Shown: one piece after another, positions 47,945 through 64,000 of the stretch
Numbering within the stretch: position 1 is the stretch's first letter
Layout of the letters: every line of letters starts with the position of its first letter
NCBI GenBank assembly: GCA_017962745.1
Contig: JAGCUR010000007.1
Coordinates: forward strand, 1 to 64,000
DNA length: 64,000 nt
Origin: Bacilli bacterium
GTDB lineage: Bacteria; Bacillota_I; Bacilli_A; ML615J-28; CAG-698
Direction of reading: 5' to 3'
Made by a program: the position numbers and the translations under genes
Notes under the pieces: generated by a model
Seen by the model: the letters and a program-made list of their open reading frames with translations, nothing else
What the model was told of the DNA's origin: nothing
Databases searched by the model: none

Positions 47945-47973
47945 TTGTATTAATCTACAAAAAATAGTAAAAT
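47945..47973 (+). promoter_or_regulatory. Promoter of the GH20-ABC glycan operon
   Basis: TTGTAT (47945-47950) and TAAAAT (47968-47973) are 17 bases apart. An upstream in-frame ATG (47972) lies in the -10 and cannot be the start. No other strong promoter was seen until the end of the window. Confidence 0.7.
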
Positions 47974-48019: not shown

Positions 48020-49855
48020 ATGAGTGTTTTTCCTGTGCCCAAAAAGGTCATAAGAGCCGATGGATTTTTTGAAACAAGTGAATTAATGAAGGTTTTCAGC
48101 GAGTTAGAAAGTCTTTTTGTTTATGAAGAGTTGAAAACGTTTGTTAATTTTGAGAAAGCAGCGAAAGAAGATGCACAATTAAAGTACTTACTCGATAATG
48201 AATTAGCTGAACAAGATTATAAAATTGTGGTAGAAGACAAAACTATAACAATCTATGCATCAAGTGCTGTAGGTCATTTCTATGGAACTACTACACTGAA
48301 ACAAATTTTTGATAAATCTATACAGTGTCAAACAATAATTGATGGACCGGACTTAAAGGTGCGAGGCTTTATGTATGACATCAGTCGTAATAAAGTGCCA
48401 AAAGTAGAAACAGTTAAATTAATTATTGATGTAATGGCAAAACTTAAAATGAATCATTTAGAGTTATATGTGGAAGGATTCTCATTCGGATATAAATCAT
48501 TTCCAGAATATCTACACAAGGATGGATATTTATCGATTGAAGAATATCAAGAGATTGAAGCATATGCTAATTCTAAATTTATTGATTTCGTACCAAATAT
48601 GAATGGTTTTGGGCATATGAATGCATGGCTTGCTATTCCAGAGCTTAAACATTTAGGTGAAACCGAAACTGGTATGTATAAATGGGGTAAGTTTAGAAAA
48701 CCATCTACACTTAATGCCCTAGATCCTGAATCTATTGAATTAGTTAAAAAGATGTATGCGGATATGATTCCATATATGAAATCACAATACTTCAATATGA
48801 ACTTTGATGAACCATTTGAACTTGGTTTAGAAAAGACTAAAGAAGCAGTAGAACAATATGGTGAAGAAAAAGTATATATCGATTATATGTTAAAGGCATA
48901 TGAAGAGATTAAGAAATACGGTAAAACGCCAATCATTTGGGGTGATGTATTAATTAATCACGATAATGCTTTACCACTTATTCCAAAAGATATGATATTT
49001 GCGGAATGGGGATATGAAGCAGAACATCCATTTAAAGATCATCTAAAGAAGTTATCAAAGGAAGGCATTAAATTCTTAGCTGCTCCAGGAACATCTACTT
49101 GGAATACAATTGCTGGTAGAAAAGACGATGCTTATGAAAATATCTTAAATGCTTGCTACTATACTAAAGAATATGGTGGTGAAGGAATTCTCCTTACTGA
49201 TTGGGGTGATAATGGTCACTTACAACCATTACCAATTAGCTTACCTTATTTAGCATATGCGGGATTATTATCTTACAGATGTAATGAAGGCGCATTTAAG
49301 AAAGTTAGAAAGTTTGTAAACAAAGAGATATTTGATGATAGTAGCGGAATGATAGCTGATTTAATTTTAGAATTAGGCAATTATTATCATTTTGAAAATG
49401 ATTATGTAGGCAATGCTACTCATTCATTCCATGTGATTACACAATCAGTTAATGCCCTAGATCAAGAGGAAGAAGATAGGGTTGATTATGTAATTAAGAG
49501 AATGCATGGTAAAGAATTAACAATTGAGAAATACAACGCAATTATGGATTTCTATGATGCTAAACATAATCAGCTACTTGATTGTGATGTGGATAACTTA
49601 GTAAAAGATGAATTGGCATTTGCAATTCATCTACTAAAGACTCTTGCTACATTCTTACTTGCTGTTAATGATATTTATGATAACAAGTTTAGAATTAAGA
49701 GATTTAAAGAAGTATTGAAACAAAAAGACATATTAATTGGAACGCTCGAATATATTTGGTTAGAGAGAAACAAATATAGCGAATTAGAAGATAGCATACA
49801 GAAAATTACAAGTGTAATGACTATGTGTGAAGAATTTATAGGGAGGCTTAAATGA
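48020..49855 (+). CDS. GH20-type beta-N-acetylhexosaminidase, cytoplasmic
   Basis: The 611-residue protein starts VFPVPKKVIRADGFF, as GH20 N-terminal domains do. A barrel follows with the GH20 pattern KVRGFMYDISRNKVPK (RGxxxDxxR-like), MAKLKMNHLELYVEGF and VPNMNGFGHMNAWL. NMNFDEPFELG near residue 259 is the probable catalytic Asp-Glu pair, in place of the commoner GGDE. IIWGDVLINHDNALPL and LTDWGDNGHLQP follow. No signal peptide is present, so it acts on imported sugars, releasing GlcNAc or GalNAc. AAAGGAGAT precedes the ATG. It overlaps the binding-protein gene by four bases. Confidence 0.83.
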   Translation: MSVFPVPKKVIRADGFFETSELMKVFSELESLFVYEELKTFVNFEKAAKEDAQLKYLLDNELAEQDYKIVVEDKTITIYASSAVGHFYGTTTLKQIFDKSIQCQTIIDGPDLKVRGFMYDISRNKVPKVETVKLIIDVMAKLKMNHLELYVEGFSFGYKSFPEYLHKDGYLSIEEYQEIEAYANSKFIDFVPNMNGFGHMNAWLAIPELKHLGETETGMYKWGKFRKPSTLNALDPESIELVKKMYADMIPYMKSQYFNMNFDEPFELGLEKTKEAVEQYGEEKVYIDYMLKAYEEIKKYGKTPIIWGDVLINHDNALPLIPKDMIFAEWGYEAEHPFKDHLKKLSKEGIKFLAAPGTSTWNTIAGRKDDAYENILNACYYTKEYGGEGILLTDWGDNGHLQPLPISLPYLAYAGLLSYRCNEGAFKKVRKFVNKEIFDDSSGMIADLILELGNYYHFENDYVGNATHSFHVITQSVNALDQEEEDRVDYVIKRMHGKELTIEKYNAIMDFYDAKHNQLLDCDVDNLVKDELAFAIHLLKTLATFLLAVNDIYDNKFRIKRFKEVLKQKDILIGTLEYIWLERNKYSELEDSIQKITSVMTMCEEFIGRLK

Positions 49856-52800
49856 AAGTAGTAATTACTGATAAGATGCTAAAGAAAATATTCTTTATAG
49901 CACTTGGAGTTGTTGTGTTCGTCATACTGATAATTGCTATTGTTCAAAGTTTTGACAAAGGTCATGTGTCATCTAATTCAACAATCATGAAAGATGTATC
50001 ACCAACCGGCAAATACTTGAAATATTTACAACTTAACAATTATGAAGACGAAAGTTTATATCCTACTGAAACAATTGAACTAAATGCTAAAGACGCTGTT
50101 TTAGTAGCTGGTTCAACAAACGAAACATATTTCAAAGAAATCAATTCAAATCATGTTCATATGCAAAGAAATGATCGTGGTGAAGAACAAGAAGTAACTA
50201 TTAGATATGATGAGATTACAGATACTGATGGCACACTTTTAGCAAGTGATGCATCAGATAAAGTAATTTACATGGGAGCAACAGGATCAGCCACTTGGGA
50301 ATTTAATGTTCCTGCTGATGGCTTCTATAATATCTTACTTGATTATGTAGCAGAACAAAGCGGTGGGGCTAACATCGAACGTAAATTTGTTGTTGATGAA
50401 GCAAAAGATGCAAATGGTAATTACATCCCTCCATATGATGCATTACTAAATGTATCATTCCAACGTGTTTGGGGCGATGCACCAGGTGCTGATATCATTA
50501 CTGATATCAATGGTAACCAAATTAAACCTGAACAAGCTGAATACTTCTTCAGACGTCAAGTTTACGCTAAAGACTCAGTTGGTTATGTTACTGAACCTTA
50601 CCTTGTATTCTTCGAAGCTGGTAATCATAAATTAACAATTGAAGCTGTTAGAGAATGCATGACAATCTATAATGTATATCTAACACCAAAAGAACATTAT
50701 GATTCATATCAAACAGTTTATAACAACTGGATTAGTAGTGGTGCTAAGATTGTAGATAAAGACAATATGGATATTAACCAAACTGAATGGACAATCCAAG
50801 GTGAAGACTCTACATATCGTTCATCATCTACTTTATATGCTGTATCAGACCGTTCATCTAAATTTAATCATCCTGCTGATCACGTTAAGATTTTACTAAA
50901 CGTAATCGGTGGAGCTAAATGGTCAACATCAGGCGACTGGATTAGTTGGAATGTAAATGTTCCAGTAGCGGGCTTATATAAAATCTCTCTAAGATGTAAG
51001 CAAAATTCATCTCGTGGACTATTTGCAGTTAGAACTGTAAGTATAAACAATGAAATACCATTCGCTGAAGCAAAGAACTGTAAATTTAATTATAGTGCTA
51101 ACTACAGTATCGTAACACTTGGTAATTCTGAAGGAGACTTCTATTTCTACCTAAATCAAGGTGAAAATATTATTTCTTTAGAAGCAAGCTTAGGTGATTA
51201 TGGTAGTGAAATTAATAGCGTACAATCAATCATCGATAACTTAAATAATGTATATCGTCAAATTATTGCTATTACTGGTACATCTCCAGATAACTATATT
51301 AACTATAAGTTAAAAGAAAGATTACCAGAATTATTTGATAACGCTGATACTGAAGAAGCAAATGATGGTTTATTTAAATCATATGCTAAAGAACTAAGAG
51401 AAATAGCAGCGAGAATCACTGAAATATCAGGTGAAAAGAGTGGTGAAACTGCATCACTTGAAACAATGGCGTTACAGTTAGAAAAGTTTGTTAAGAAGCC
51501 TCGTAACATTCAACGTAACTTATCGACATTTAGTTCTAATATTTCTTCTTTAGGTACTTGGATTTTAACAGTAACAGAACAAACATTAACAATTGATGAA
51601 ATATATGTTCATACAAAAGATTTCAAATTACCAAGAGCTAATCCTAACTTCTTTGGTGATTTAGGATTCAAGTTTATAGCATTCGTTAGATCATTCTTCT
51701 TTGATTACACTACAATTGGTAAAACAGAAGCAACTGCTGGCTATGAAAATATCGAAGTATGGTTACTTACTGGTGGATCTGCTGGTCGTGAACAAGCTAA
51801 TGCGATTAGAACTTTAGTAAATAGTTCATTTACTCATCAACATCGTATTAACGTTGACTTAAAAGCCGTATCAAGTGGTGTATTACTAACAGCAACACTT
51901 TCTGGTAATGGACCAGATGTAGCGATCCAAGCTGATAATGGTACACCTGTTAACTACGCTATCCGTGGCGCAATTTATGATTTAACTCAATTTGATGACT
52001 TCGTTGTAGAAGAAAAAGTTGATGCTAATGGTAATAAGAGTTATTCAGTTAAAGTTGATGGTGAAGCAGAATCTAGATGGCAAGATAGTGCGATGACTCC
52101 TTATGAGTTAGAAGGTGGCTTCTATGCCTTACCTAATACCCAAGGATTCCTAGTAATGTTCTACCGTACAGATATCTTTGAAGCTCAAGGATGGGATGTA
52201 CCTCAAACTTGGACTGATGCAATTAACTTAATTCCAGAATTACAATTCCAGAACTTATCATTCTACTTACCATTAAATACAGTTGGTGCAAGTAGCGTTG
52301 TTAACCAAGTATTTGCAAGTAGACTATATCAAACAGGTGGTAGATTCTATCGTACTAAGTTAAACGAAGAAACTGGATTAGAATATATGGAATCTAATTT
52401 CGATTCAGAAGAAGCAATCAATGCATTCGAATTCTGGTGTTCATTCTATACAGATTATAGTTTCTCACTTTCAGTAAGTGGTGGAACATTCATCAATAGA
52501 TTTAGAACTGGTGAAATGCCAATCGGTATTGCGAGTTATGAAACATACAATACACTTGCCGTATCTGCGCCAGAAATTAGAGGTAAATGGAAATTTGCCC
52601 TAATGCCAGGAACAGTTGATGATAACGGCGACTTACACATTGATGGTGCTGCTGGTGGTAGCGCAATCATGTTAATGAAGCAAGCTAAAAACCCTGAAGG
52701 TGGTTGGGAATTCATGAAGTGGTGGACTAGTGCTGATACACAAATCCAATACGCTCGTGAAATCGAATCTATCTTAGGTGCAGCTGCTCGTCATCCAACT

Positions 52801-53067
52801 GCTAATATTGAAGCATTCCAAGCATTGTCTTGGACAGTTGATGAATTAGCTGTTCTAATGCAACAATGGGAAAACACAGTTGGTGTACCAGAAGTAGCAG
52901 GTGGTTATTACACTGGACGTAACCTAGAAAATGCATTTAGATATGTAGTTAATAATAAAACAAATCCTCGAGAGACACTTGATGACTATGTAAGAACAAT
53001 CAATAACGAAATAAATCGTAAGCGTGATGAGTTCGGACTTGGTACATCACCTGACTACTACGGCTAA
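49852..53067 (+). CDS. Large membrane-anchored ABC solute-binding protein with carbohydrate-binding-like modules
   Basis: The 1071-residue chain has one membrane helix (about 12-33) and no lipobox Cys, so it is tethered by the helix and not by lipid. Two beta-sandwich-like modules follow (about 85-280 and 318-460), each with a GSATWEFNVPADGFYNI-like or WISWNVNVPVAGLYKISL pattern reminiscent of CBM6/35. A helical linker and a small strand region come next. From about 633 to the end there is a family-1 sugar-binding protein with WLLTGGSAGREQANAIRTL, SGNGPDVAIQADNGTPVN and WEFMKWWTS. Usual binding proteins have about 430 residues. It is the only binding protein in the locus. Confidence 0.85.
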   Translation: MKVVITDKMLKKIFFIALGVVVFVILIIAIVQSFDKGHVSSNSTIMKDVSPTGKYLKYLQLNNYEDESLYPTETIELNAKDAVLVAGSTNETYFKEINSNHVHMQRNDRGEEQEVTIRYDEITDTDGTLLASDASDKVIYMGATGSATWEFNVPADGFYNILLDYVAEQSGGANIERKFVVDEAKDANGNYIPPYDALLNVSFQRVWGDAPGADIITDINGNQIKPEQAEYFFRRQVYAKDSVGYVTEPYLVFFEAGNHKLTIEAVRECMTIYNVYLTPKEHYDSYQTVYNNWISSGAKIVDKDNMDINQTEWTIQGEDSTYRSSSTLYAVSDRSSKFNHPADHVKILLNVIGGAKWSTSGDWISWNVNVPVAGLYKISLRCKQNSSRGLFAVRTVSINNEIPFAEAKNCKFNYSANYSIVTLGNSEGDFYFYLNQGENIISLEASLGDYGSEINSVQSIIDNLNNVYRQIIAITGTSPDNYINYKLKERLPELFDNADTEEANDGLFKSYAKELREIAARITEISGEKSGETASLETMALQLEKFVKKPRNIQRNLSTFSSNISSLGTWILTVTEQTLTIDEIYVHTKDFKLPRANPNFFGDLGFKFIAFVRSFFFDYTTIGKTEATAGYENIEVWLLTGGSAGREQANAIRTLVNSSFTHQHRINVDLKAVSSGVLLTATLSGNGPDVAIQADNGTPVNYAIRGAIYDLTQFDDFVVEEKVDANGNKSYSVKVDGEAESRWQDSAMTPYELEGGFYALPNTQGFLVMFYRTDIFEAQGWDVPQTWTDAINLIPELQFQNLSFYLPLNTVGASSVVNQVFASRLYQTGGRFYRTKLNEETGLEYMESNFDSEEAINAFEFWCSFYTDYSFSLSVSGGTFINRFRTGEMPIGIASYETYNTLAVSAPEIRGKWKFALMPGTVDDNGDLHIDGAAGGSAIMLMKQAKNPEGGWEFMKWWTSADTQIQYAREIESILGAAARHPTANIEAFQALSWTVDELAVLMQQWENTVGVPEVAGGYYTGRNLENAFRYVVNNKTNPRETLDDYVRTINNEINRKRDEFGLGTSPDYYG

Positions 53068-53081
53068 AAAGGAGGGAAATA

Positions 53082-54083
53082 ATGGAAAATTCAATAAACA
53101 AAGAACCTAACTTTTTAGTTAAGGGGTGGAAGAAATTTACTAATTGGTGGAACGAAACTGGTCGTAAGATTGACAAATGGAGTAAACGTGGTAAACCAAT
53201 CAGAAGAAAATTATATTTGAATAGAACATTATATTTAATGATGTTCCCATTCTTACTATTATTCTTATTCTTCACAGTTATTCCAGTATTAATGAGTTTA
53301 TATTTAAGCTTTACTTACTATAACATGTTAGAGACACCAAAGTTTATTTGGTTTAGTAACTACTTAACACTATTCTTAGATGACCAAATATTTATTACTG
53401 CTTTAAAGAATACAGTAATCTTAGCAGTTATTACTGGTCCAGTTGGTTATATCATGGCATTCGTATTTGCCTGGTTAATTAACGAACTACCTGACCGTAT
53501 TAGACCTATTATTACATTAGTATTCTATGCACCATCACTTGCAGGTAATGCCCTAGCTATTTGGACATATATCTTCTCAAGTGACTCATATGGATATGCT
53601 AATGCGTTCTTAGTAAGTTTTGGTTTAATCCAAGAACCAATTCAATGGTTAACAAATACTAAATACATCTTAGCAATCGTTATTATCGTACAGTTATGGA
53701 TGAGTTTAGGTGTTAACTTCTTGTCACTAGTTGCGGGTCTTAAAGGTGTTGATAAAACACTATATGAAGCTGCAGCTGTTGACGGTGTTAAAAATAGATG
53801 GCAAGAGTTATGGTACATCACACTTCCTAGTATGAAACCACAACTTGTGTTTAGTGCCGTTATTCAAATTTCAGGTACTTTAGGTATCGGATCAATTACT
53901 GTATCACTAGCGGGCTTCCCATCAGTAGACTATGCAGCCCATACGATTGTAAACCACTTACAAGACTATGGTAACTTGCGTTTCGAAATGGGTTACGCTT
54001 CAGCTATCGCAACCTTATTATTCTTAGCATCAATCGGACTTAATAAGTTGATCAGAAAGATCATTAGTAAGGTAGGTGAATAA
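53082..54083 (+). CDS. Sugar ABC transporter permease, MalF-type, pair 1
   Basis: The 333-residue protein has a basic cytoplasmic N-terminus of about 45 residues and six membrane helices. The coupling motif is EAAAVDGVKNRWQELWYITLP near residues 227-247, the EAA loop that contacts the ATPase. The first helix region (YLMMFPFLLLFLFFTVIPVLMS) is typical of MalF/UgpA-like subunits. GGAGGG precedes the ATG. Its gene lies directly after the binding protein and 1 base before its partner. Confidence 0.92.
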   Translation: MENSINKEPNFLVKGWKKFTNWWNETGRKIDKWSKRGKPIRRKLYLNRTLYLMMFPFLLLFLFFTVIPVLMSLYLSFTYYNMLETPKFIWFSNYLTLFLDDQIFITALKNTVILAVITGPVGYIMAFVFAWLINELPDRIRPIITLVFYAPSLAGNALAIWTYIFSSDSYGYANAFLVSFGLIQEPIQWLTNTKYILAIVIIVQLWMSLGVNFLSLVAGLKGVDKTLYEAAAVDGVKNRWQELWYITLPSMKPQLVFSAVIQISGTLGIGSITVSLAGFPSVDYAAHTIVNHLQDYGNLRFEMGYASAIATLLFLASIGLNKLIRKIISKVGE

Positions 54084-54084
54084 G

Positions 54085-55056
54085 ATGGCAGAAAAGATTA
54101 AAAAAGTTAGAGTAAAGCGTTCTAAACGCGATATTAACGATATCAAGTCTGCTAGAATTGATTCGCGCCCATTCTCAGAAATTAGTAATTCGAAGGTATA
54201 TCGTAGATCAAAGAAAAAGAAAAGAGTAAACCGTTCAACAGGTGGTGATATTGCCCTAATCGTATTCTTAGCGATTTGTGGAATATTTAGTTTCTTACCA
54301 TTATTACTAACAGTTAATAATGCGTTCAAACCACTTGATGAATTATTCTTATTCCCACCAAGATTCTTCGTTCGTAAGCCAACACTTGCAAACTTTGAAA
54401 ACTTGGCTAATGCGCTAACTAGTTCACTAGTTCCATTCTCAAGATATTTCTTCAATACTATATTAATTACAATCGCCGGAACATTTGGTCACTTATTAGT
54501 TGCTTCAATGTGTGCATACCCACTAGCAAAATATAAAGTACCTGGTGGTGCATTCATTCTATCAATTATCACTTTATCATTAATGTTCCCTGGTAGTGTT
54601 ACAGGTATCCCTCGTTATATCATTTTCAACTGGTTTGGAATGATTGATACCCACTGGTCAATAATCTTACCTGCCCTACAATCATCCCTTGGTCTATTCT
54701 TAATGAGACAGTTTATGGTTGGTGTACCAACAGAACTTCTAGAATCTGCCAAGATCGATGGTGCTGGTGAGTTTAGAATTTATTGGAAAATCGTTATGCC
54801 TCTAGTTAAACCTGCTTGGTTAACTTTAATTATCTTATTAATCCAAGATCTATGGTCTGCAGATGGATCAAGTTATATCTATCGTGAAGATTATAAGTTA
54901 GTAAGTTATGCCTTAAGCCAGATTTCAGCTGGTGGTCCAGCCCTAGAAGGTATTTCAGCTGCCGTTAGTTTAATTATGATTTTAGTACCAATCCTTGTAT
55001 TCATAATTTCTCAATCACAAGTTATGGAAACAATGGCTCATTCTGGTATGAAGTAG
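54085..55056 (+). CDS. Sugar ABC transporter permease, MalG-type, pair 1
   Basis: The 323-residue protein has a very basic N-terminus (about 1-50, many Lys/Arg) and six membrane helices. The EAA loop is ESAKIDGAGEFRIYWKIVMP. The SMCAYPLAKYKVPG and GVPTELLESAK segments are typical of MalG/UgpE-like subunits. ATG at 54085 is used because AGGTAGGTGA is well spaced; a GTG at 54076 would sit on that site. It completes the first permease pair. Confidence 0.92.
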   Translation: MAEKIKKVRVKRSKRDINDIKSARIDSRPFSEISNSKVYRRSKKKKRVNRSTGGDIALIVFLAICGIFSFLPLLLTVNNAFKPLDELFLFPPRFFVRKPTLANFENLANALTSSLVPFSRYFFNTILITIAGTFGHLLVASMCAYPLAKYKVPGGAFILSIITLSLMFPGSVTGIPRYIIFNWFGMIDTHWSIILPALQSSLGLFLMRQFMVGVPTELLESAKIDGAGEFRIYWKIVMPLVKPAWLTLIILLIQDLWSADGSSYIYREDYKLVSYALSQISAGGPALEGISAAVSLIMILVPILVFIISQSQVMETMAHSGMK

Positions 55057-55067
55057 GAGTAAGTTTT

Positions 55068-57254
55068 ATGAAAAGAATTATCTCTAAAATCTTCATTCTA
55101 GTTTTAGCCGTTAGTTTACTTGGTCTCGGATTACACAGTAAGGCAGCAACTGGTTATTCATATGACCACAATAAAAAAATTATTTATTCAGCAGAAGGCT
55201 TAATTTATGACCACAGCTTCGATGGTAAATCATTAGGTATTGGTTATAGTGGACTTACTTCTCCTGAAGACTTCTTCATCTTCAATCATCCAACTACAGA
55301 TGAAGTGAAGATGTACTTAACAGATTCAAAAGCAAACACAATATATGTATTAGATACAACATTTAATAAGATTGATGCATACAATTCATTTGTTTTAGAT
55401 GTAGCTAAATTTAATGATACACAACTTAAAGCAATGAAGAGTAATGGTGCTTCTATTGTAGTAAGTTATGAAAAAGCTGATAGGATTGTAGAAGACTTTT
55501 TGAAAGATTTAAATAAATCAATCAAAGCTAATGGATTTATGCCACAAAATGGTATTGAAATTAGTGGCGGTACTAAAGTCACTACAATTAGCGCATCTAA
55601 CTTCTACGAAGCTACTAAATATATTTTAGTAGGTAAAGGAACAAGTGATGAAAACTGGGATAGTACTGCTAAAGGTCTTTTAGAAGTTGATAAAGCATTC
55701 ACATCAAAATGGTTATGGTATTTATCATATGCTCAAAGCACTCATTTAAGTAATGAATACTTACTTGGTGCATGTAACAAAGCAGGCTTGCTATATGATT
55801 ATAGCGGTGCAACAGCAGAAGTATATGATGTAAGTTCAGCAAAGATGTTAGCTAATAACATTGCTAACTTAATCAATTACTCTAGTGAAACAAAACACGG
55901 TGTAGAAGGTAATAGCTATGTAGCTTCAAACTTCGCAAATAAAGAAGCAACTGAAGCTAAGTTAGTAGAAGATTGTGGTGCAATGTCACTAAATGCTATT
56001 AGAAATGCTGGTACTTATACAATCGGTTTAGCTAACCCTAAATCAGCATATCGTAGTGTTATCACTAAGTTTGCAGATGAATCATTAGATAACCGTGATT
56101 TCTTATACATTTGTGACTACGATAATAACCAAGTATTATGTATCGATTCACAAACATTAGAAATTAAGATCGTTATTACTAACCCTAACGAATACGAAAA
56201 TGTATTAGTATTCGACGCGCAAGTATTCCAACCTCAAAAAGTTGTTACTGATAACGCTGGTAGAATTTATGTTATCGCTAATAGTGTCTTTGAAGGTATT
56301 CTTCAATTCGATGCTGATGGTATTTATAAACGTTTCACAGGTGTTAACAACGTAACATTAACTGCTTGGGATATCTTCTGGTTATCAGTATCAACTGAAG
56401 CCCAATACGAAAGTAGAAAATCATATATCAATACGACATTTACAAGTATGGCAGTAGATGTAACTGGTACATTTATTTATAGTACTGCTTCACCTATTAC
56501 TAACTCAAATGGTAGTGTTAACTCTACAGCAATGATTAAGAAACTTAATCCAGCTGGAAAAGATGTACTACGTCGTAACGGATATGCTCCTCCTCAAGGT
56601 GACTTGACATATGTAGCTGACACTGCAAATGGTGCAGAAATTGCTGTTGGTCCATCAAGCTTTAACGCAATCGCTGTTAATGAATATGGTATGTATACAG
56701 TCGTTGATAGTAAACGTAACCGCCTATTTACATATGACAACGAAGGACATCTACTTTATATCTCAGGTGAAAGCGGAAAATACACTAACGTATTAGATGC
56801 TCCTGTTGCTATTCAATATTATGGCGATGATATCATCGTCCTAGATAAGAATACTAAAGAATTAAAAGTATTCGTATCAACTGAAATCGGTGGTTACATC
56901 AATAAAGCCGTAGAACTAGAATACAAAGGCGATATTGATAGTGCAGCAGAATACTGGAAGAAAGTTATCAAATTCAATGCTAACTACGAATATGCATATG
57001 TTGGTGTTGGTAAGAAGTACTTAAAAGATAAAGAGTACAAGACTGCAATGCAATACTTCAAGAATGGTTCTAATAAATTACAATACTCTGAAGCATATAA
57101 GTTATATCGAAATAACATCATCAAGAAATATGCTCCTCCAGTATTATATGTAATTGTAGGACTAGTAATTGTTCTAGTTGTATTCAAGATTGTTAGAAAG
57201 AAGCTAGGTAAGAACAAACCTAAAGAAGAATTAAATATGGGTGAGGACGAATAA
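55068..57254 (+). CDS. Secreted beta-propeller (NHL/YVTN-like) protein with TPR and C-terminal anchor
   Basis: The 728-residue protein has a Sec signal peptide (1-27, ending SKAAT). The long beta-rich part looks like a propeller: LYICDYDNNQVLCIDSQTLEIKIVI, VTDNAGRIYVIANSVFEGILQFDADG, IAVNEYGMYTVVDSKRNRLFTYDNEG and YYGDDIIVLDKNTKELKVF are successive blade strands. A TPR-like region follows (about 611-685: GDIDSAAEYWKKVIKFNANYE, YKTAMQYFKNGS). A membrane helix (688-708) and a Lys-rich tail end the chain. It should face outward. AGGAG precedes the ATG. Its role beside permeases is not established. Confidence 0.82.
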   Translation: MKRIISKIFILVLAVSLLGLGLHSKAATGYSYDHNKKIIYSAEGLIYDHSFDGKSLGIGYSGLTSPEDFFIFNHPTTDEVKMYLTDSKANTIYVLDTTFNKIDAYNSFVLDVAKFNDTQLKAMKSNGASIVVSYEKADRIVEDFLKDLNKSIKANGFMPQNGIEISGGTKVTTISASNFYEATKYILVGKGTSDENWDSTAKGLLEVDKAFTSKWLWYLSYAQSTHLSNEYLLGACNKAGLLYDYSGATAEVYDVSSAKMLANNIANLINYSSETKHGVEGNSYVASNFANKEATEAKLVEDCGAMSLNAIRNAGTYTIGLANPKSAYRSVITKFADESLDNRDFLYICDYDNNQVLCIDSQTLEIKIVITNPNEYENVLVFDAQVFQPQKVVTDNAGRIYVIANSVFEGILQFDADGIYKRFTGVNNVTLTAWDIFWLSVSTEAQYESRKSYINTTFTSMAVDVTGTFIYSTASPITNSNGSVNSTAMIKKLNPAGKDVLRRNGYAPPQGDLTYVADTANGAEIAVGPSSFNAIAVNEYGMYTVVDSKRNRLFTYDNEGHLLYISGESGKYTNVLDAPVAIQYYGDDIIVLDKNTKELKVFVSTEIGGYINKAVELEYKGDIDSAAEYWKKVIKFNANYEYAYVGVGKKYLKDKEYKTAMQYFKNGSNKLQYSEAYKLYRNNIIKKYAPPVLYVIVGLVIVLVVFKIVRKKLGKNKPKEELNMGEDE

Positions 57255-57255
57255 T

Positions 57256-58002
57256 ATGGAAAAAGAAGTATTAGATTCTCAACAATTAAATAAATCTTCT
57301 GAAGAAACAAAGGAAAGCAAAGCTAAGAAGTTCTTCGGCGTTCTTAAAAGATTTTGGAAATATTTCGTAGAAGAATATATTAAGTTTCCACTATATATTC
57401 TTGCCCATCCAATGAAGGGTTTCATGATGTTCCAAAGAGAACATCGTGCAAAATGGGGTCCAGCAATCTTTTATGCCGTAGTTGTTATCATTATTAACAT
57501 CTTAGACTTCCAATATGTTTCGATTGAAATTCGTGACCGTGATTTGAAGAACTTAAAGTTCTTCGCCCAAATCACATATATCGTAGGACCCATCTTACTT
57601 TATACATTTGCTAGTTGGGCATGTACTACCATCCTTGATGGTAAAGGTAAATTAAAAGAAATATTCTTAATGACATGCTATTCATTATTCCCACTTGCTT
57701 GGTGTAGTGGAATTGCCTTAGCATTAAGTAATATTTTAACTGGTACAGAACTTGCCATTTACCGTTTGATTTATGCTCTAGGTTATGTATTAATGGGTTA
57801 TATGATCTTTACGGGAATGATTACTATTCACGAGTTTGGATTAGGTAAAACACTGTTTTCTTTAATTCTTACATTAATAGCGGCAATCGTAATTGTCTTT
57901 GTCATTTTATTAATGTATGAATTGTTCCAAAAGATGTTCGGTTTTCTTTATACTTTGTATACTGAAATAACGCAAAGAGATCTTTTGAGGTTCCGAAAAT
58001 GA
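57256..58002 (+). CDS. Yip1-family membrane protein
   Basis: The 248-residue protein has a basic/acidic N-terminal 50 residues and five hydrophobic helices. The FPLYILAHPMKGFMMFQRE opening, TTILDGKGKLKEIFLMTCYSLFP loop and TGMITIHEFGLGKTLFSLILT are those of the bacterial YIP1 family. Members have no defined biochemical role. It starts two bases after the propeller gene and overlaps the DUF5696 gene by four bases, so the three are translationally coupled. A start at 57241 (GTG) is also open but lies within the previous gene. Confidence 0.83.
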   Translation: MEKEVLDSQQLNKSSEETKESKAKKFFGVLKRFWKYFVEEYIKFPLYILAHPMKGFMMFQREHRAKWGPAIFYAVVVIIINILDFQYVSIEIRDRDLKNLKFFAQITYIVGPILLYTFASWACTTILDGKGKLKEIFLMTCYSLFPLAWCSGIALALSNILTGTELAIYRLIYALGYVLMGYMIFTGMITIHEFGLGKTLFSLILTLIAAIVIVFVILLMYELFQKMFGFLYTLYTEITQRDLLRFRK

Positions 58003-61000
58003 TGCGATTTTTAAAAGCTAAATTCATCATTCCGGCTTTAATTGTAATCCTTGCAGTTATCGTAGTACTTTTATATTTTGTTGGTGCTTTAAAAGCTAAC
58101 GCTAAATCATTTGATAATATTCCATTTGATTTATCAAAGTTTGTGGTTGCTAGTGAACAAGAAACACTTAACAAAAATAAGAAGATAGCTGAAAATGCTA
58201 ACTTCATTATGTATTTTGATGAAGACACAACAGTTGTAACTATCGAAGATAAGACTACTCATAAGCTTTATACAACTGCTATCCCATCTGAAGCTAACGC
58301 CGAAGGTGAATATGTAGCAGAAGGTCAAGATACAGGCTTACTTGATAGTGAAAATAATCCAATTTTAGAAAACGTAGATAAGAAATCATTAATGTCTAAC
58401 TTCATTCTTTACTACATTAAGAAAGATGGTAAAGAAAGCGGAAGTAGCTTAAACGTTATTGAAAATAGCGTTGCCTTCAAGAATGAATTAATTGGTGAAT
58501 ACGAACGTCATTATTCATTCTATGAAAACCAAGAAGAAGGCTTAGTTCAAGTATGTTATGACATTGGTAAATTCTCATCAATTTCAGCTTATTTCCCTTC
58601 AAAAGCTAAAAAGACTGATTGGGATGACCTAATCAGAGGTAACATTAGATTTGAAGAAAGAATTACTAGTCAAAAAGAAACTGGTTATATTTCATATACT
58701 GGTCGTGCTTATTGTTATGGTGATGATATTCTAGAATATCTTCAAAATAATGATTTACTAGATTATGAAACTGAACCAAGACTTACTGATCCTAAAGAAA
58801 GAGAATATTTAGTAACTCTAAATCCTGATAATCTTCTTTATGATACATATGGAACATATTTAAATTGTGAAGGTTCACCTCTTAAATATAATCCATTCAT
58901 TTCATACAACGAATGGGAATTCTTATCAAAGACATATTATCAATTGGGTGTTTCAGATACAATCGTTGATGAAAACGGCGAAGCTGTTAGATATTACGGT
59001 GTTGATAAAATGTCTACAAACATCGCTCGTGAATTATATAATTACTTATACACAAAACATATTCAAACAGTAGAAAAAGTAGTTGGTAGTACAACTGAAA
59101 CTGTTCAATTAAAATATGATAATGGTGAATATGTATACCGTGGTGGTTTCCATGCCCGCGATGAAGAAGGTAATTATTTATATGAAACAGATGAAGAAGG
59201 TAACTTAGTTCCTGTTCAAGGCTTCTATAACGTTGAAATGGTAGAAGAACAAGATATTTACTTTGGTGTTGATGCCGATGTTACACTTCCTGTATTTAGA
59301 GTAGCTTTACAATTCAAGCTAACTGAAAAAGGTTTAGAAGTATCTGTTATTCATGATTCATTATTAGATTCATCAAATTGGACTAAAGATGATAACAAGA
59401 TGTATAACGGTAAATGTAAGATCGCACGTATTGAAATGGCACCAATGCTTGCTTCTTCATATGTAGCAACAGATGGCGCTGGCCAAATCATCTTACCAGA
59501 TGGTAGCGGCTCAGTTATTGAATTCAATAACCACGCCGAAGACCGTGGCGCATCTGCTTACAACCATACAATTTATGGTCCTGATGAAGTATTCTTAGTA
59601 AATAACCAAACAGCTCAAACGCCAGATTTAATGTTCCCAATGTTTGGTTTCTTAGATAACGCAAGTAACAAAGGCGTTATGGGTGTTGTTAAGAAAGGTG
59701 CTAACCTATCTTCAATTGTAGCCGACTCAAATAGATCGGGTACACCATATAACTATGTTAAGTTTACAACTTATATTCGTGAAATCGAAAAGCTAGAATT
59801 AGCTTATGGATGGTATCGATATAAAATCGATAAATGGGCTGAATATATGTGCCCAACAGATATTGTATATGATTATTGGTTCATTAAAGGCGACGATCTA
59901 AACTACTCAAGTTTAGCTAAGGTTTATCAATCATACTTATGCGCTCAATATAATATCTTGCCATCTGATGCTACAGATAAAACAGTTGTTAACCTTAATA
60001 TGGTAGGTGCTTATAGACATTACCAATTAACACTTGGTATTATCTACTACAAGAAGAGTGCCTTAACATCATTCGAACAAGCTGAAGAAATCGTTCAAGA
60101 ATTAATTGATAATGGCGTCGATAAGATGGCTATATCTTATAAAGGCTGGACGCAAGATGCGCTAGAATATAAGTTACGTCGTAACTTTAGTATCTCAAGT
60201 GCCCTTGGTGGCAAGAAAGATATGCAAGATTTAAGCGCCTTCTTTGCTAGCAAAGGAATTGACTTCTATCCAGAACTTAATATCTCTACAAACAAAGGAT
60301 ATAAGTTAGGATTTGGTAATTCTAAATACACAGCTAGAGGTGTTGGTAATGTTGCGGCTAAAGAATATGCATACGACTTATCAAAGAATCAATACGATAA
60401 GAAATCAAAACCAACTTATTTAGTATCTCCTAAGTTCTATACTAATATTTCAGAAGTAGTATCTAAATCATTTGCAAAGACAAATGCTAATGGTATTTAC
60501 TTAATTGACTTAGGAAATGAAAAGATTGGTGATTATCGTAAGAGTAATCCAATTTACGCCGAAGCTAATAAGTATTATCAAATCGATGCCATGAATTATT
60601 GGAAAGAGAATGGCTATAAAGTTCAATTAAATCGTCCATTTGATTATGCTATTGGATCTGCTTCAAGTATCGTTGGTGCTCCACTAACTACAACTTTAGA
60701 TCCAATCATTAACTATACTATTCCATTCTATGAATTAGTATTAAGTGGAATTGTTGATTATAGTATGGAAATCATTAATGGTACTAATGACTATAGCGTT
60801 GAATGGTATTTAGCTAAAGCAGCTGAAACTGGATCTAACTTATATTTCCAAGTAGCATATAAAGATAATTCAATCTTGCTTGAAACAGATTATACTCAAT
60901 ATTACCGTGTTCATTTTGAACAATGGAAAGATACAATCATTGATATGACTACAAGATTAAATCAACTTGGAATTCATGGTGGTCACTTAGTTAAACATGA

Positions 61001-61136
61001 ATCAATCAACGTCAATGGATTAACTATTGCGAAAGTAGAATATAGTAACGGTATTAAACTATATGTTAACACTAATAGTCGTGATGTCATCTACGATGGT
61101 AAGACTATTAAAGCATATAGTTGGTACAAGTTATAG
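57999..61136 (+). CDS. DUF5696-type large extracytoplasmic protein, possible glycoside-hydrolase-like barrel
   Basis: The 1045-residue protein has an N-terminal membrane helix (about 10-30) and is then extracytoplasmic. The N-terminal half is beta-rich. From about 483 come SSYVATDGAGQIILPDGSGSVIEFNN, a segment I associate with DUF5696, and from about 690 alternating strands and helices. Motifs such as MAISYKGWTQDAL, GIDFYPELNIS, ANGIYLIDLGNEK and YSMEIINGTND suggest a TIM barrel. Candidate acidic residues sit at strand ends, but no family-specific catalytic pair can be named. It may be an enzyme trimming a glycan at the surface or an inactive binder. GAGG precedes the ATG. Confidence 0.75.
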   Translation: MMRFLKAKFIIPALIVILAVIVVLLYFVGALKANAKSFDNIPFDLSKFVVASEQETLNKNKKIAENANFIMYFDEDTTVVTIEDKTTHKLYTTAIPSEANAEGEYVAEGQDTGLLDSENNPILENVDKKSLMSNFILYYIKKDGKESGSSLNVIENSVAFKNELIGEYERHYSFYENQEEGLVQVCYDIGKFSSISAYFPSKAKKTDWDDLIRGNIRFEERITSQKETGYISYTGRAYCYGDDILEYLQNNDLLDYETEPRLTDPKEREYLVTLNPDNLLYDTYGTYLNCEGSPLKYNPFISYNEWEFLSKTYYQLGVSDTIVDENGEAVRYYGVDKMSTNIARELYNYLYTKHIQTVEKVVGSTTETVQLKYDNGEYVYRGGFHARDEEGNYLYETDEEGNLVPVQGFYNVEMVEEQDIYFGVDADVTLPVFRVALQFKLTEKGLEVSVIHDSLLDSSNWTKDDNKMYNGKCKIARIEMAPMLASSYVATDGAGQIILPDGSGSVIEFNNHAEDRGASAYNHTIYGPDEVFLVNNQTAQTPDLMFPMFGFLDNASNKGVMGVVKKGANLSSIVADSNRSGTPYNYVKFTTYIREIEKLELAYGWYRYKIDKWAEYMCPTDIVYDYWFIKGDDLNYSSLAKVYQSYLCAQYNILPSDATDKTVVNLNMVGAYRHYQLTLGIIYYKKSALTSFEQAEEIVQELIDNGVDKMAISYKGWTQDALEYKLRRNFSISSALGGKKDMQDLSAFFASKGIDFYPELNISTNKGYKLGFGNSKYTARGVGNVAAKEYAYDLSKNQYDKKSKPTYLVSPKFYTNISEVVSKSFAKTNANGIYLIDLGNEKIGDYRKSNPIYAEANKYYQIDAMNYWKENGYKVQLNRPFDYAIGSASSIVGAPLTTTLDPIINYTIPFYELVLSGIVDYSMEIINGTNDYSVEWYLAKAAETGSNLYFQVAYKDNSILLETDYTQYYRVHFEQWKDTIIDMTTRLNQLGIHGGHLVKHESINVNGLTIAKVEYSNGIKLYVNTNSRDVIYDGKTIKAYSWYKL

Positions 61137-61154
61137 GACTAAAGGAGGTTAAAA

Positions 61155-62246
61155 ATGGAAGTTAAACAAGAAAAGAAATCATTTTTCCGTAACCTTGGTC
61201 ATTCTATCGCAAATGGTTGGCGTAAGATGCGCAATGCCATTAGCAATTTCTTCTATAAGATAAGAAATTCAAAGTTTATGAGAAAAGTTGGTGAGATTTT
61301 ATCATTCTTACCAAACAAGATCGCTAAACATATTCCTTATCGTAAAAGAAAAGCTATTTGGGGTGTTATCTTTGTCATTCCACTAGCTATTGGTTTTACA
61401 TATTTCTTCTTAATTCCATTCGTCCAAATGTTCATCTATAGTTTCTCTTTTGTAACTATTGGTGATGCTGGTCTAGAACAATGGGGTGTTGGTTTTAAGA
61501 ACTACATATATATCTTTACAGAAGATCCAAACTTTACAGAAAACTTCAGTAAAGCCGTATTATCAATGTTAACAGATATTCCAACCATTTTAATCTTTAG
61601 TTTATTAATGGCTGTAATTCTAAATTCTAAATTTAAAGGTAGAGCACTTGTAAGAAGTATATTCTTCGTGCCAGTTATCTTTAACTCACAAGCCGTTACT
61701 GCTGCTATTGCTAATACATCTAATTCATTAAATGCAGCCGCAAGTGCTTCAACAAACGACTTGTTTGCCCAAATGTTTAACTTTAGTACGTTCCTTCAAA
61801 ACGCTGGTATTCCATACTTCTTAGTATCATTTATCGGAAGCGTTTCAACGAAGATTTACGATATTATTAGTTATTCAGGTATTCAAATTATTATCTTCCT
61901 AACAGCTATTCAAGGTGTTCCTGTTCACCTATATGAAGCAGCTAAAATGGAAGGTGCAACACAATACGATATGTTCTGGAAGATTACTTTCCCAATGGTA
62001 TCACCAATGATGTTAACTTGTGCGGTGTATACAGTTGTAGATGCATTCTTAAGATCACCAATCTTATCAAGTATTCAAGCATGGTATGCAAAAGGTACAG
62101 GTACATACGGAAGTAAAACTCTAGGAACTTTATCAAACTACGGAATTAATGCTGCTATGTCAGTTATATTCTGTTTGATGAGTTTATTGATCGTAGCTAT
62201 TGTGTTAGGCATATTGTCAAGGTTGGTATTCTACTATGACGATTAA
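61155..62246 (+). CDS. Sugar ABC transporter permease, MalF-type, pair 2
   Basis: The 363-residue protein has an unusually long basic N-terminus (about 75 residues) and six membrane helices. The EAA loop reads EAAKMEGATQYDMFWKITFP. Between helices there is an Asn/Ala/Ser-rich outer loop (ANTSNSLNAAASASTND) not seen in the pair 1 subunit. AAAGGAGG precedes the ATG. It overlaps its partner by 11 bases. Sequence differences from the pair 1 permease are large, so the pairs are old paralogs. Confidence 0.9.
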   Translation: MEVKQEKKSFFRNLGHSIANGWRKMRNAISNFFYKIRNSKFMRKVGEILSFLPNKIAKHIPYRKRKAIWGVIFVIPLAIGFTYFFLIPFVQMFIYSFSFVTIGDAGLEQWGVGFKNYIYIFTEDPNFTENFSKAVLSMLTDIPTILIFSLLMAVILNSKFKGRALVRSIFFVPVIFNSQAVTAAIANTSNSLNAAASASTNDLFAQMFNFSTFLQNAGIPYFLVSFIGSVSTKIYDIISYSGIQIIIFLTAIQGVPVHLYEAAKMEGATQYDMFWKITFPMVSPMMLTCAVYTVVDAFLRSPILSSIQAWYAKGTGTYGSKTLGTLSNYGINAAMSVIFCLMSLLIVAIVLGILSRLVFYYDD

Positions 62247-63297
62247 TGAAAGACCAGAACCTAGGACAATAAAAGAAGCAATCGCATACTTCAAAGAAGA
62301 TATGCAAAATCCAATTAGAAGAAAGATTAGGCTTACAGGACTATTATCGACAATCGCATCGATCTTTAGAGCATTCTTACTACTGGGTTTATGCTTCATA
62401 ATTTTAATGCCATTCCTTCAAAAAATATCTTATTCATTTAGATATGTAACTGATACTGATAACCCACTAGTTATTTGGATTCCTGAGACTTGGTCAGTAG
62501 TTAACTACAAGATCGGTCTTGAATGCTTACAATTTAGTACATCATTCTGGGTTAGTTTAACATTATCTGCTGTTACAACAGTATTACAAGTATTATCAAC
62601 AGCTATCGCTGGTTACGCATTTGCAAGATTAAAATTTAAAGGAAGTACAATTTTCTTCTATATCGTTTTATTTGCTCTTGTAGTTCCAGATGAAGCATTA
62701 AAAGGAACAAGATCATTATTCTTCTCGAATAATAGATTCTTCTGGATTAACTTAATTAAGTTATCTACATACACTAGTTCATTTGTTCCATGGCAGATCA
62801 TTAGAAACTGTGCTGCTGTATTCATTATGTCAGCCTTTGGCCAGGGTTTACGTAGTTCTATCTTCATTTATCTATTTAGACAGTTCTTTAGAAATGTTCC
62901 AATCGAACTTGAAGAATCAGCACAAGTGGATGGTGCAACTGTTACACAAACATTCTGGAGAGTTATGTTTCCAAATGCTAGAGGTACAATAATTACTGTC
63001 GCTTTGTTCTCATTTGTATGGCAATACAATGATTCATATTATGCAAGTATTTATGGTATCAACACTATTGCAACTAGACTTGCCAACATTTCTTCATCTT
63101 CAATTAAACTAGTTGTACAATTATATGAAGAATTTAGATTAATCTTCGGTTCAGAATTAATCGTTGACGAAAGAATGGTTGGTCTAATCGGTAATACATG
63201 TGCTTTGATCATGATGGTACCATTACTAATTGGTTACTTCTTCGTTCAAAGATTGTTTGTAGAAAGCATTGAACGTACTGGTTTAACTGGTATGTAA
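62236..63297 (+). CDS. Sugar ABC transporter permease, MalG-type, pair 2
   Basis: The 353-residue protein has a cytoplasmic N-terminus of about 40 residues and six membrane helices. Its EAA loop is ESAQVDGATVTQTFWRVMFP, and GYAFARLKFKGSTIFF matches the MalG-type helix 3 region. An insert of about 30 residues (VVPDEALKGTRSLFFSNNRFFW) enlarges the second outer loop compared with pair 1. It completes a second permease dimer. A long hairpin separates it from nagB. Confidence 0.9.
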   Translation: MTINERPEPRTIKEAIAYFKEDMQNPIRRKIRLTGLLSTIASIFRAFLLLGLCFIILMPFLQKISYSFRYVTDTDNPLVIWIPETWSVVNYKIGLECLQFSTSFWVSLTLSAVTTVLQVLSTAIAGYAFARLKFKGSTIFFYIVLFALVVPDEALKGTRSLFFSNNRFFWINLIKLSTYTSSFVPWQIIRNCAAVFIMSAFGQGLRSSIFIYLFRQFFRNVPIELEESAQVDGATVTQTFWRVMFPNARGTIITVALFSFVWQYNDSYYASIYGINTIATRLANISSSSIKLVVQLYEEFRLIFGSELIVDERMVGLIGNTCALIMMVPLLIGYFFVQRLFVESIERTGLTGM

Positions 63298-63303
63298 TAA
63301 AAC

Positions 63304-63341
63304 AAGGTTACATACTTATATTCCTAAGTGTGTAACCTTTT
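63304..63341 (+). terminator. Long hairpin between the permease operon and nagB
   Basis: AAGGTTACA (63304-63312) pairs with TGTAACCTT (63331-63339). A six-base inner extension, TACTTA with TAAGTG (one wobble), leaves a 6-base loop. Only four T residues follow, so it may terminate weakly or act as an RNA-stability element. Confidence 0.7.
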
Positions 63342-63361
63342 AAAGAGAAAGAAGGTACAAA

Positions 63362-64000
63362 ATGAAAATTATAATTACTAAAGACTATCAAGAATTAAGC
63401 GAAAAAGCAGCTGAAATTATTATTGATTTAGTTAAGAACAATCCAAGTTGTACTCTAGGACTTGCAACCGGATCAAGCCCAATTGGTTTATATAAAAACT
63501 TAATTAAGGCTTATGAAGATGGCGTTATCTCTTTTAAAGATGTTAAATCATATAACTTAGATGAATATTGTGAACTTCCAAAACAACATCGTGAAAGTTA
63601 TTATTCATTCATGCATGCTAACTTATTTGATCACATCGATATTAAAGAAGAAAATACTCATCTTCCATCAAGCGAAGGATCAGACTTACAAGCTAACTGT
63701 AAAGCATATAACAAGATGTTAAATTCTACAGTTGTAGATTTACAACTTTTAGGAATTGGTGCTAATGGTCATATCGGTTTCAATGAACCTGGTACTCCAT
63801 TCAAAAACGAAACATCAGTTATTAAATTAACTGATAAAACTAGAGAAGATAACAAGAGATTCTTTGATGGCGATATCAACCAAGTTCCTAAATATGCCAT
63901 TACAATGGGTATTAAGAACATTCTAAATGCTAAATCAATTTTACTTGTAGCTAACGGTAAGAATAAAGCTGAAGCTATCGCTAAACTAGTAAGTGGCGAA
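63362..64000 (+). CDS. nagB: Glucosamine-6-phosphate deaminase NagB (3' end outside the window)
   Basis: NagB converts glucosamine-6-phosphate to fructose-6-phosphate and ammonia. The 213 residues visible show the ring-opening and phosphate motif LATGSSPIGLY (34-44), the catalytic Asp in NLDEY (65-69), and IGANGHIGFNEPGTPF (132-147). AGAAGGTAC precedes the ATG. Its place after a GH20 and sugar importer genes shows that the locus handles amino sugars. NagA and a kinase are not in the visible part; the BadF-type kinase at 23189 is one possible source of GlcNAc-6-P. Confidence 0.97.
   Translation, partial: MKIIITKDYQELSEKAAEIIIDLVKNNPSCTLGLATGSSPIGLYKNLIKAYEDGVISFKDVKSYNLDEYCELPKQHRESYYSFMHANLFDHIDIKEENTHLPSSEGSDLQANCKAYNKMLNSTVVDLQLLGIGANGHIGFNEPGTPFKNETSVIKLTDKTREDNKRFFDGDINQVPKYAITMGIKNILNAKSILLVANGKNKAEAIAKLVSGE

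Follow-up and report, generated by a model that had tools for sequence, protein, structure and literature searches.

Toward its downstream end, the window analysed here (the whole stretch of 64,000 nucleotides) encodes two permease pairs of the MalF/MalG type in one run of genes, together with a giant solute-binding protein (SBPg), a propeller protein, a Yip1-domain protein, and a DUF5696 protein. CUT1 importers have been described with one binding protein and two transmembrane subunits (PMC13311272, PMC7658222), and the locus raises the question of whether it encodes one uptake system or several, and for which glycans. We conclude that it is probably one copy of a conserved, undescribed CUT1 (MalFG-type) ABC glycan-uptake module.

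Gene order in the window and its host genome

The preliminary description placed the genes from GH20 to nagB on one strand, nearly without gaps apart from a hairpin, and the open reading frames and Pfam matches bear this out (Table 1). Spacing from GH20 to G2 runs from short overlaps up to 18 bases, and the sole larger gap, of 64 bases, lies 5' of nagB and contains the hairpin. The hairpin is absent from the listing of a terminator scan, and Rfam has zero matches across 44 to 64 kb of the window, hairpin included; it is not a typical terminator, and possibly acts as an element of mRNA processing or stability. Two gene starts merit comment: for GH20, position 47972 is the first in-frame start and the ATG at 48020 is the better fit, and for the Yip1 gene an alternative ATG at 57256 is possible. 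Behind nagB on the same contig we note a gene for an 802-residue lipoprotein with a DUF4886 domain (L010:1798-4203, + strand).

Table 1. Features of the locus, with positions in the window
Feature	Positions	Strand	Evidence and remarks
GH20 family glycosidase	48020..49855	+	Pfam GH20, 3e-23
SBPg, giant solute-binding protein, 1071 aa	49852..53067	+	SBP_bac_1 at C-terminus (Pfam, 77.5 bits)
F1, MalF-type permease	53082..54083	+	BPD_transp_1; EAA motif EAAAVDG
G1, MalG-type permease	54076..55056	+	BPD_transp_1; EAA motif ESAKIDG
N, secreted NHL/propeller protein, C-terminal transmembrane segment	55068..57254	+	Pfam NHL, 19.5 bits (cut-off 20)
Y, Yip1-domain membrane protein	57241..58002	+	Pfam Yip1 (PF04893), 3.5e-12, 47 bits (cut-off 28.6)
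DUF5696 protein, 1045 aa, N-terminal hydrophobic anchor	57999..61136	+	PF18952, 433 bits, 2e-129
F2, MalF-type permease	61155..62246	+	BPD_transp_1; EAA motif EAAKMEG
G2, MalG-type permease	62236..63297	+	EAA motif ESAQVDG; BPD_transp_1 25.8 bits, just below cut-off 26.4
Hairpin in the G2-nagB gap	63304..63339	+	15-pair stem, -18.9 kcal/mol, z -4.3, without T tract
nagB, glucosamine-6-phosphate deaminase	63362..64093 (contig)	+	PF01182; in window to 64000, last 93 bases beyond

The Yip1 match exceeds the curated cut-off of its family, as does that of the DUF5696 protein, which covers positions 4 to 611 of the 612 in PF18952. The label of propeller-TPR protein given earlier to N is only partly apt; its NHL match is marginal, and TPR repeats are lacking in the window protein but occur among its paralogues, which give clear NHL matches and some TPR matches. 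SBPg carries a hydrophobic anchor at its N-terminus, a pair of beta-sandwiches resembling CBM35 (both sub-threshold), a helical region, and the SBP_bac_1 domain at about 630 to 1060, and was modelled with AlphaFold2 at a pLDDT of 80. Its C-terminus matches sugar-binding proteins such as Lin1841 (5ysb, E 1.5e-23), and SBPg thus belongs with the SBP_bac_1-type extracellular solute-binding proteins.

A PF18952 search of the host's own assembly (1.54 Mb, 19 contigs) recovered four full-length DUF5696 genes, and all four lie in the common order SBPg, F1, G1, NHL(-TPR)-Yip1, DUF5696, F2, G2. The N and Y genes, separate in the window, form one fused gene in the three other copies, and F2 and G2 are fused in one of these (L006). 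Together, the four modules account for 16 of the 26 BPD_transp_1 matches in the genome. The copies are accompanied by different cargo genes, from whose enzyme families the substrates are named: GH20 and nagB in the window; a PF10091 (GH144-type) protein and GH3 at L006, with a 1500-residue protein upstream, for β-1,2-glucan; two GH130 genes at L007 for β-mannan; and GH16, GH30, and a GH94/GH149-like phosphorylase at L008 for laminarin. The 1500-residue protein (L178:2730-7229, - strand, contig C6) joins SOGP phosphorylase domains and PF10091 in a single chain and is possibly a two-step β-1,2-glucan enzyme.

Distribution and integrity of the module

A scan of GTDB contigs found at least 530 stretches that encode DUF5696 relatives. 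The best 80 of these 530 come mainly from Bacillaceae, Paenibacillus, Acholeplasmatales, Izimaplasma, and Haloplasma, with others from Clostridiales, Thermoanaerobacter, Fervidobacterium, Thermosipho, and one Chloroflexi MAG. Fictibacillus, Paenibacillus, and Lederbergia are among the hosts, with GH144-type cargo at their loci. About 160 further loci were retrieved and their genes labelled with profiles built from the module parts, giving 161 DUF5696 loci, window included, in Bacilli, Clostridiales, Thermotogota, and one Chloroflexi MAG. All eight parts are present in order in 146 loci, another 14 run off a contig end but keep their surviving parts in order, and one is a real exception; the order is therefore complete in 146 of the 147 loci free of such cuts. 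A first tally had given 138 complete loci of 159, and re-examination in six frames of its 21 exceptions and of two missed loci showed eight to be complete (hidden by overlapping open reading frames), 14 to be contig-cut, and one to be the exception. Among the 138 first-counted loci, 110 have N and Y as one fused gene. These 138 loci encode 131 distinct DUF5696 proteins; some genomes were represented in each of the two collections. The exception, L092 (G042:C3:126685-146584), has only a truncated DUF5696 gene with F2 and G2, and is the sole partial module inside a contig; it could be a decaying copy, an assembly error, or a genuinely reduced form. With three further copies in the same genome and the same order at nearly every untruncated locus, the gene order of the window is not a matter of chance.

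Co-occurrence gives the same picture. Among 392 sampled genomes of the same phylum, 48 have a strong full DUF5696 match, and the genomes matched by N-Y (47) and by the SBPg N-terminal half (46) are both nested within these 48; the missing cases are G042, with its partial module, and G371, where the genes are at contig edges. Pairwise identities of the module parts also correlate over 93 loci (r 0.75 to 0.98). A single machine would be called into question if pair 2 and the middle genes could be found apart from pair 1, and a search for separable permease pairs in the 161 loci and 392 genomes found none apart from G042. Since the parts co-occur and correlate in identity, they travel together, and the proposal of a single uptake module has held up to the synteny comparison. 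Nonetheless, a fixed operon order does not prove that the products form one physical machine.

Weak DUF5696 matches to partial barrels (positions about 200 to 450), seen in other and control genomes, were set aside; they look like unrelated TIM-barrel glycosidases, and the four such loci (L082-L084, L009) are without the module. Viral contigs gave zero DUF5696 matches. We note that whole or partial modules are seen in MAGs that carry the labels Chloroflexi, Fervidobacterium, and Thermosipho (L148, L155, L159, L173), which may reflect spread across phyla, gene transfer, or faulty binning. In the open-access full texts searched, no mention of DUF5696, PF18952, or IPR043751 was found, and nothing relevant on double-pair importers came up there.

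Receptors, cargo genes, and energy supply

The idea that two channels share one giant receptor did not survive the wider comparison, as a second binding protein (SBP2) is a normal member of the module. In most loci a lipoprotein of about 450 to 530 residues is encoded directly 5' of SBPg; it is a divergent binding protein of which Pfam detects only some members, and strict criteria identify it in 93 of 132 loci, with more where the lipobox or start was missed. In the GH20 subtype to which the window belongs, SBP2 is not adjacent. In the relative L055, an orthologous locus, it is located behind nagB, and the best match to the L055 protein in the host genome of the window, with 36% identity along 506 residues, is encoded on contig C18 next to a gene for a PIG-L deacetylase. 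Judged by this similarity, the C18 protein is a plausible SBP2 partner of the window module. Adjoining the C18 binding protein and PIG-L genes is a gene for a 391-residue protein without a Pfam match (L177:9839-11011, - strand). When SBP2 specificity was compared by cargo class, a class effect appeared in one divergence band and not in the next; this weakly positive outcome gives weak support to SBP2 as the sole determinant of specificity, and we did not adopt that proposal.

The cargo genes also bear on the suggestion that the machine is dedicated to GlcNAc-containing glycans. Cargo could be classed in 138 loci as β-1,2-glucan (47), β-1,3-glucan (36), MurNAc (15), GlcNAc (9), mannan (5), or NAGPA (3), with 23 unassigned. 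Because cargo varies between loci, with the module also adjoining β-1,2-glucan, β-1,3-glucan, mannan, and MurNAc enzymes, a GlcNAc-specific machine is rejected, and only the GH20 subtype of the window looks GlcNAc-directed. GH20 lies directly 5' of SBPg in all nine loci of this subtype and is a substrate-specific cargo gene outside the conserved core; for the window copy, GH20 with nagB points to import of GlcNAc-containing oligosaccharides. Overall, the module looks less like an importer specialised for one sugar than like a general, though uncharacterised, machine for glycan uptake.

Other cargo versions were seen. In L015, L017, L019-L028, L034, and similar loci the module adjoins NamZ, a NagZ-type GH3, and a BadF/BadG-type kinase, a combination that suggests a version for peptidoglycan (MurNAc-GlcNAc) uptake. 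A further version (L013, L014, L033, L066, L067) has NAGPA-type phosphodiester glycosidase and/or GHL10 proteins, and some of its loci have DUF624 genes.

Both permease pairs of the window are of the MalF/MalG type with EAA coupling loops, and a strict pattern finds an EAA-like motif in F1, G1, F2, and G2 in 137, 121, 135, and 131 of 138 loci, respectively. With these loops kept in both pairs, each of them appears to be ATPase-coupled. The module itself showed no ATPase gene. The host genome encodes four MalK-type ATPases, one of which stands alone on contig C10 next to pgk and has as its best PDB match MsmX of B. subtilis (6yir, 5e-148), a multitask ATPase of sugar importers (PMC7658222). By sequence similarity, a candidate MalK/MsmX-type ATPase is thus available to the module, and the arrangement of a locus without an ATPase gene and an orphan MsmX-type ATPase elsewhere in the genome resembles that of Bacillus MsmX systems (PMC7658222).

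Alternative readings and a proposed mode of action

The module could be two ordinary CUT1 importers in one operon, SBPg-F1-G1 and SBP2-F2-G2, that take up chains of different length or different products of one polysaccharide; N-Y and DUF5696 would then be surface accessories. The one-to-one pairing of two binding proteins with two permease pairs in most loci fits this arrangement, as do the distinct subfamilies of F1/G1 and F2/G2, which profiles tell apart in each locus, and the retention by every pair of its own EAA motif. Yet independent importers should be met alone at times, and the two halves are together in 146 of the 147 untruncated loci; moreover, SBP2 and F2-G2 are not side by side but have the inner genes between them, and the window subtype retains both pairs even though its SBP2 is elsewhere. 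Two importers are a possible reading that we take seriously, although we do not think it the likely one. A different division of labour is suggested by median pairwise identities over the same 93 loci, which are 62% for F1, 57% for G1, 45% for the C-terminal domain of SBPg, 44% for G2, and 40% for F2, and fall to 34% for N-Y, 27% for the N-terminal half of SBPg, 27% for DUF5696, and 25% for SBP2. As F1, G1, and the SBPg domain are the parts most conserved across cargo, pair 1 and SBPg might be a sensor or regulator, or an importer of one common compound, leaving glycan import to pair 2 and SBP2. We think this improbable, because F1 and G1 keep their EAA loops, a signalling domain is not seen, SBPg has CBM35-like modules, and differing rates are normal between families. 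The gradient rather suggests that pair 1 and the SBPg domain are the constant part of the module and SBP2 the variable, substrate-facing part.

The role of DUF5696 was approached through a homologue, L099, which shares 21% identity with the window protein and was modelled with a pLDDT of 91 and a pTM of 0.90. Foldseek places this model closest to ZgGH129 (5opq, E 1e-38, TM 0.74 by target), followed by NagBb of GH129 and then GH101 and GH36; the three-domain fold with a TIM barrel of NagBb and ZgGH129 is present in the L099 model, and is extended to the window protein as a member of the same family. This fold of GH129, GH101, and GH36 enzymes would be expected if DUF5696 were an active surface-trimming glycosidase with non-canonical catalytic residues, the module then being an importer with its enzyme, and D617 of L099, a position occupied by an acidic residue (D or E) in 98% of homologues, would suit such a role. 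Against it, the position aligned with the GH129 nucleophile (D435 of NagBb, equivalent to D486 of ZgGH129; PMC5698469) is S, N, Y, or T, and acids three to four residues before are not conserved, in a weak alignment (E about 1e-4) whose register is uncertain by a few residues; in the window, D617 is replaced by N or by Y according to the alignment used. That one DUF5696 family is present at loci of very different cargo (β-glucan, mannan, MurNAc, and GlcNAc), a range too wide for any single specificity, likewise speaks against an enzyme dedicated to one substrate, and we consider an active glycosidase quite unlikely. DUF5696 is instead predicted from the model to be a membrane-anchored GH129-like protein without a conserved catalytic nucleophile, and is probably a non-hydrolytic, glycan-binding relative of GH129-type enzymes.

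For the reading that we prefer, a single glycan-uptake module, comparison of the loci shows at the sequence level a fixed core of SBPg, F1, G1, N, Y, DUF5696, F2, and G2, normally with SBP2 upstream and with exchangeable glycosidases and phosphorylases around it. In such a module, the variable lipoprotein SBP2 would capture the substrate-specific oligosaccharide, and long chains would be retained and passed on at the outer face of the membrane by the anchored SBPg, CBM-like at its N-terminus, together with the propeller/Yip1 protein and the DUF5696 protein of GH129-like fold. Both permease pairs, powered by a shared MsmX-type ATPase, would import oligosaccharides, and the neighbouring enzymes would complete the breakdown. 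A bolder version, offered tentatively, is a composite ABC importer in which two pairs, SBPg, the propeller-Yip1 protein, and a glycosidase-like but catalytically dead protein are one assembly threading long glycans inward, and which, with its exchangeable second receptors and enzymes, would be a MalFG-based counterpart of Sus systems.

Sus-type loci of Bacteroidota combine surface glycan binding, uptake, and matching enzymes, and occur in several copies per genome. The module has the same logic and likewise several copies per genome, but uses a MalFG-type ABC system in place of SusC/SusD. It shares with CUT1 systems (MalEFGK2 and the Bacillus MsmX systems) the SBP_bac_1 receptor and the MalF/MalG-type pair with EAA loops, and departs from them in having two pairs and normally two binding proteins, a giant anchored SBPg, N-Y, and DUF5696; one binding protein and one pair per transporter would apply only in the case of two independent importers encoded in a single operon. 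The C-terminal domain of SBPg is like the Lin1841-type β-1,2-glucooligosaccharide-binding proteins, from which SBPg differs by an N-terminal extension of about 600 residues, which includes CBM-like sandwiches as well as a membrane anchor, and by the conservation of its binding domain over loci of unlike cargo. Similarly, the DUF5696 homologue L099 has the overall fold of GH129, ZgGH129, and GH101, whereas the family differs from GH129 and GH101 in its non-conserved nucleophile Asp, its N-terminal membrane anchor, and its constant location inside an import module.

Nearly all of the 161 loci combine two permease pairs, usually along with a second receptor, and two or three further proteins for which the open-access papers searched give no function, against the description of such importers with one receptor and one pair. 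If the parts cooperate, the module would be a general route by which Gram-positive bacteria and their relatives import long β-glycans, and would give a function to DUF5696 and to this group of Yip1 proteins.
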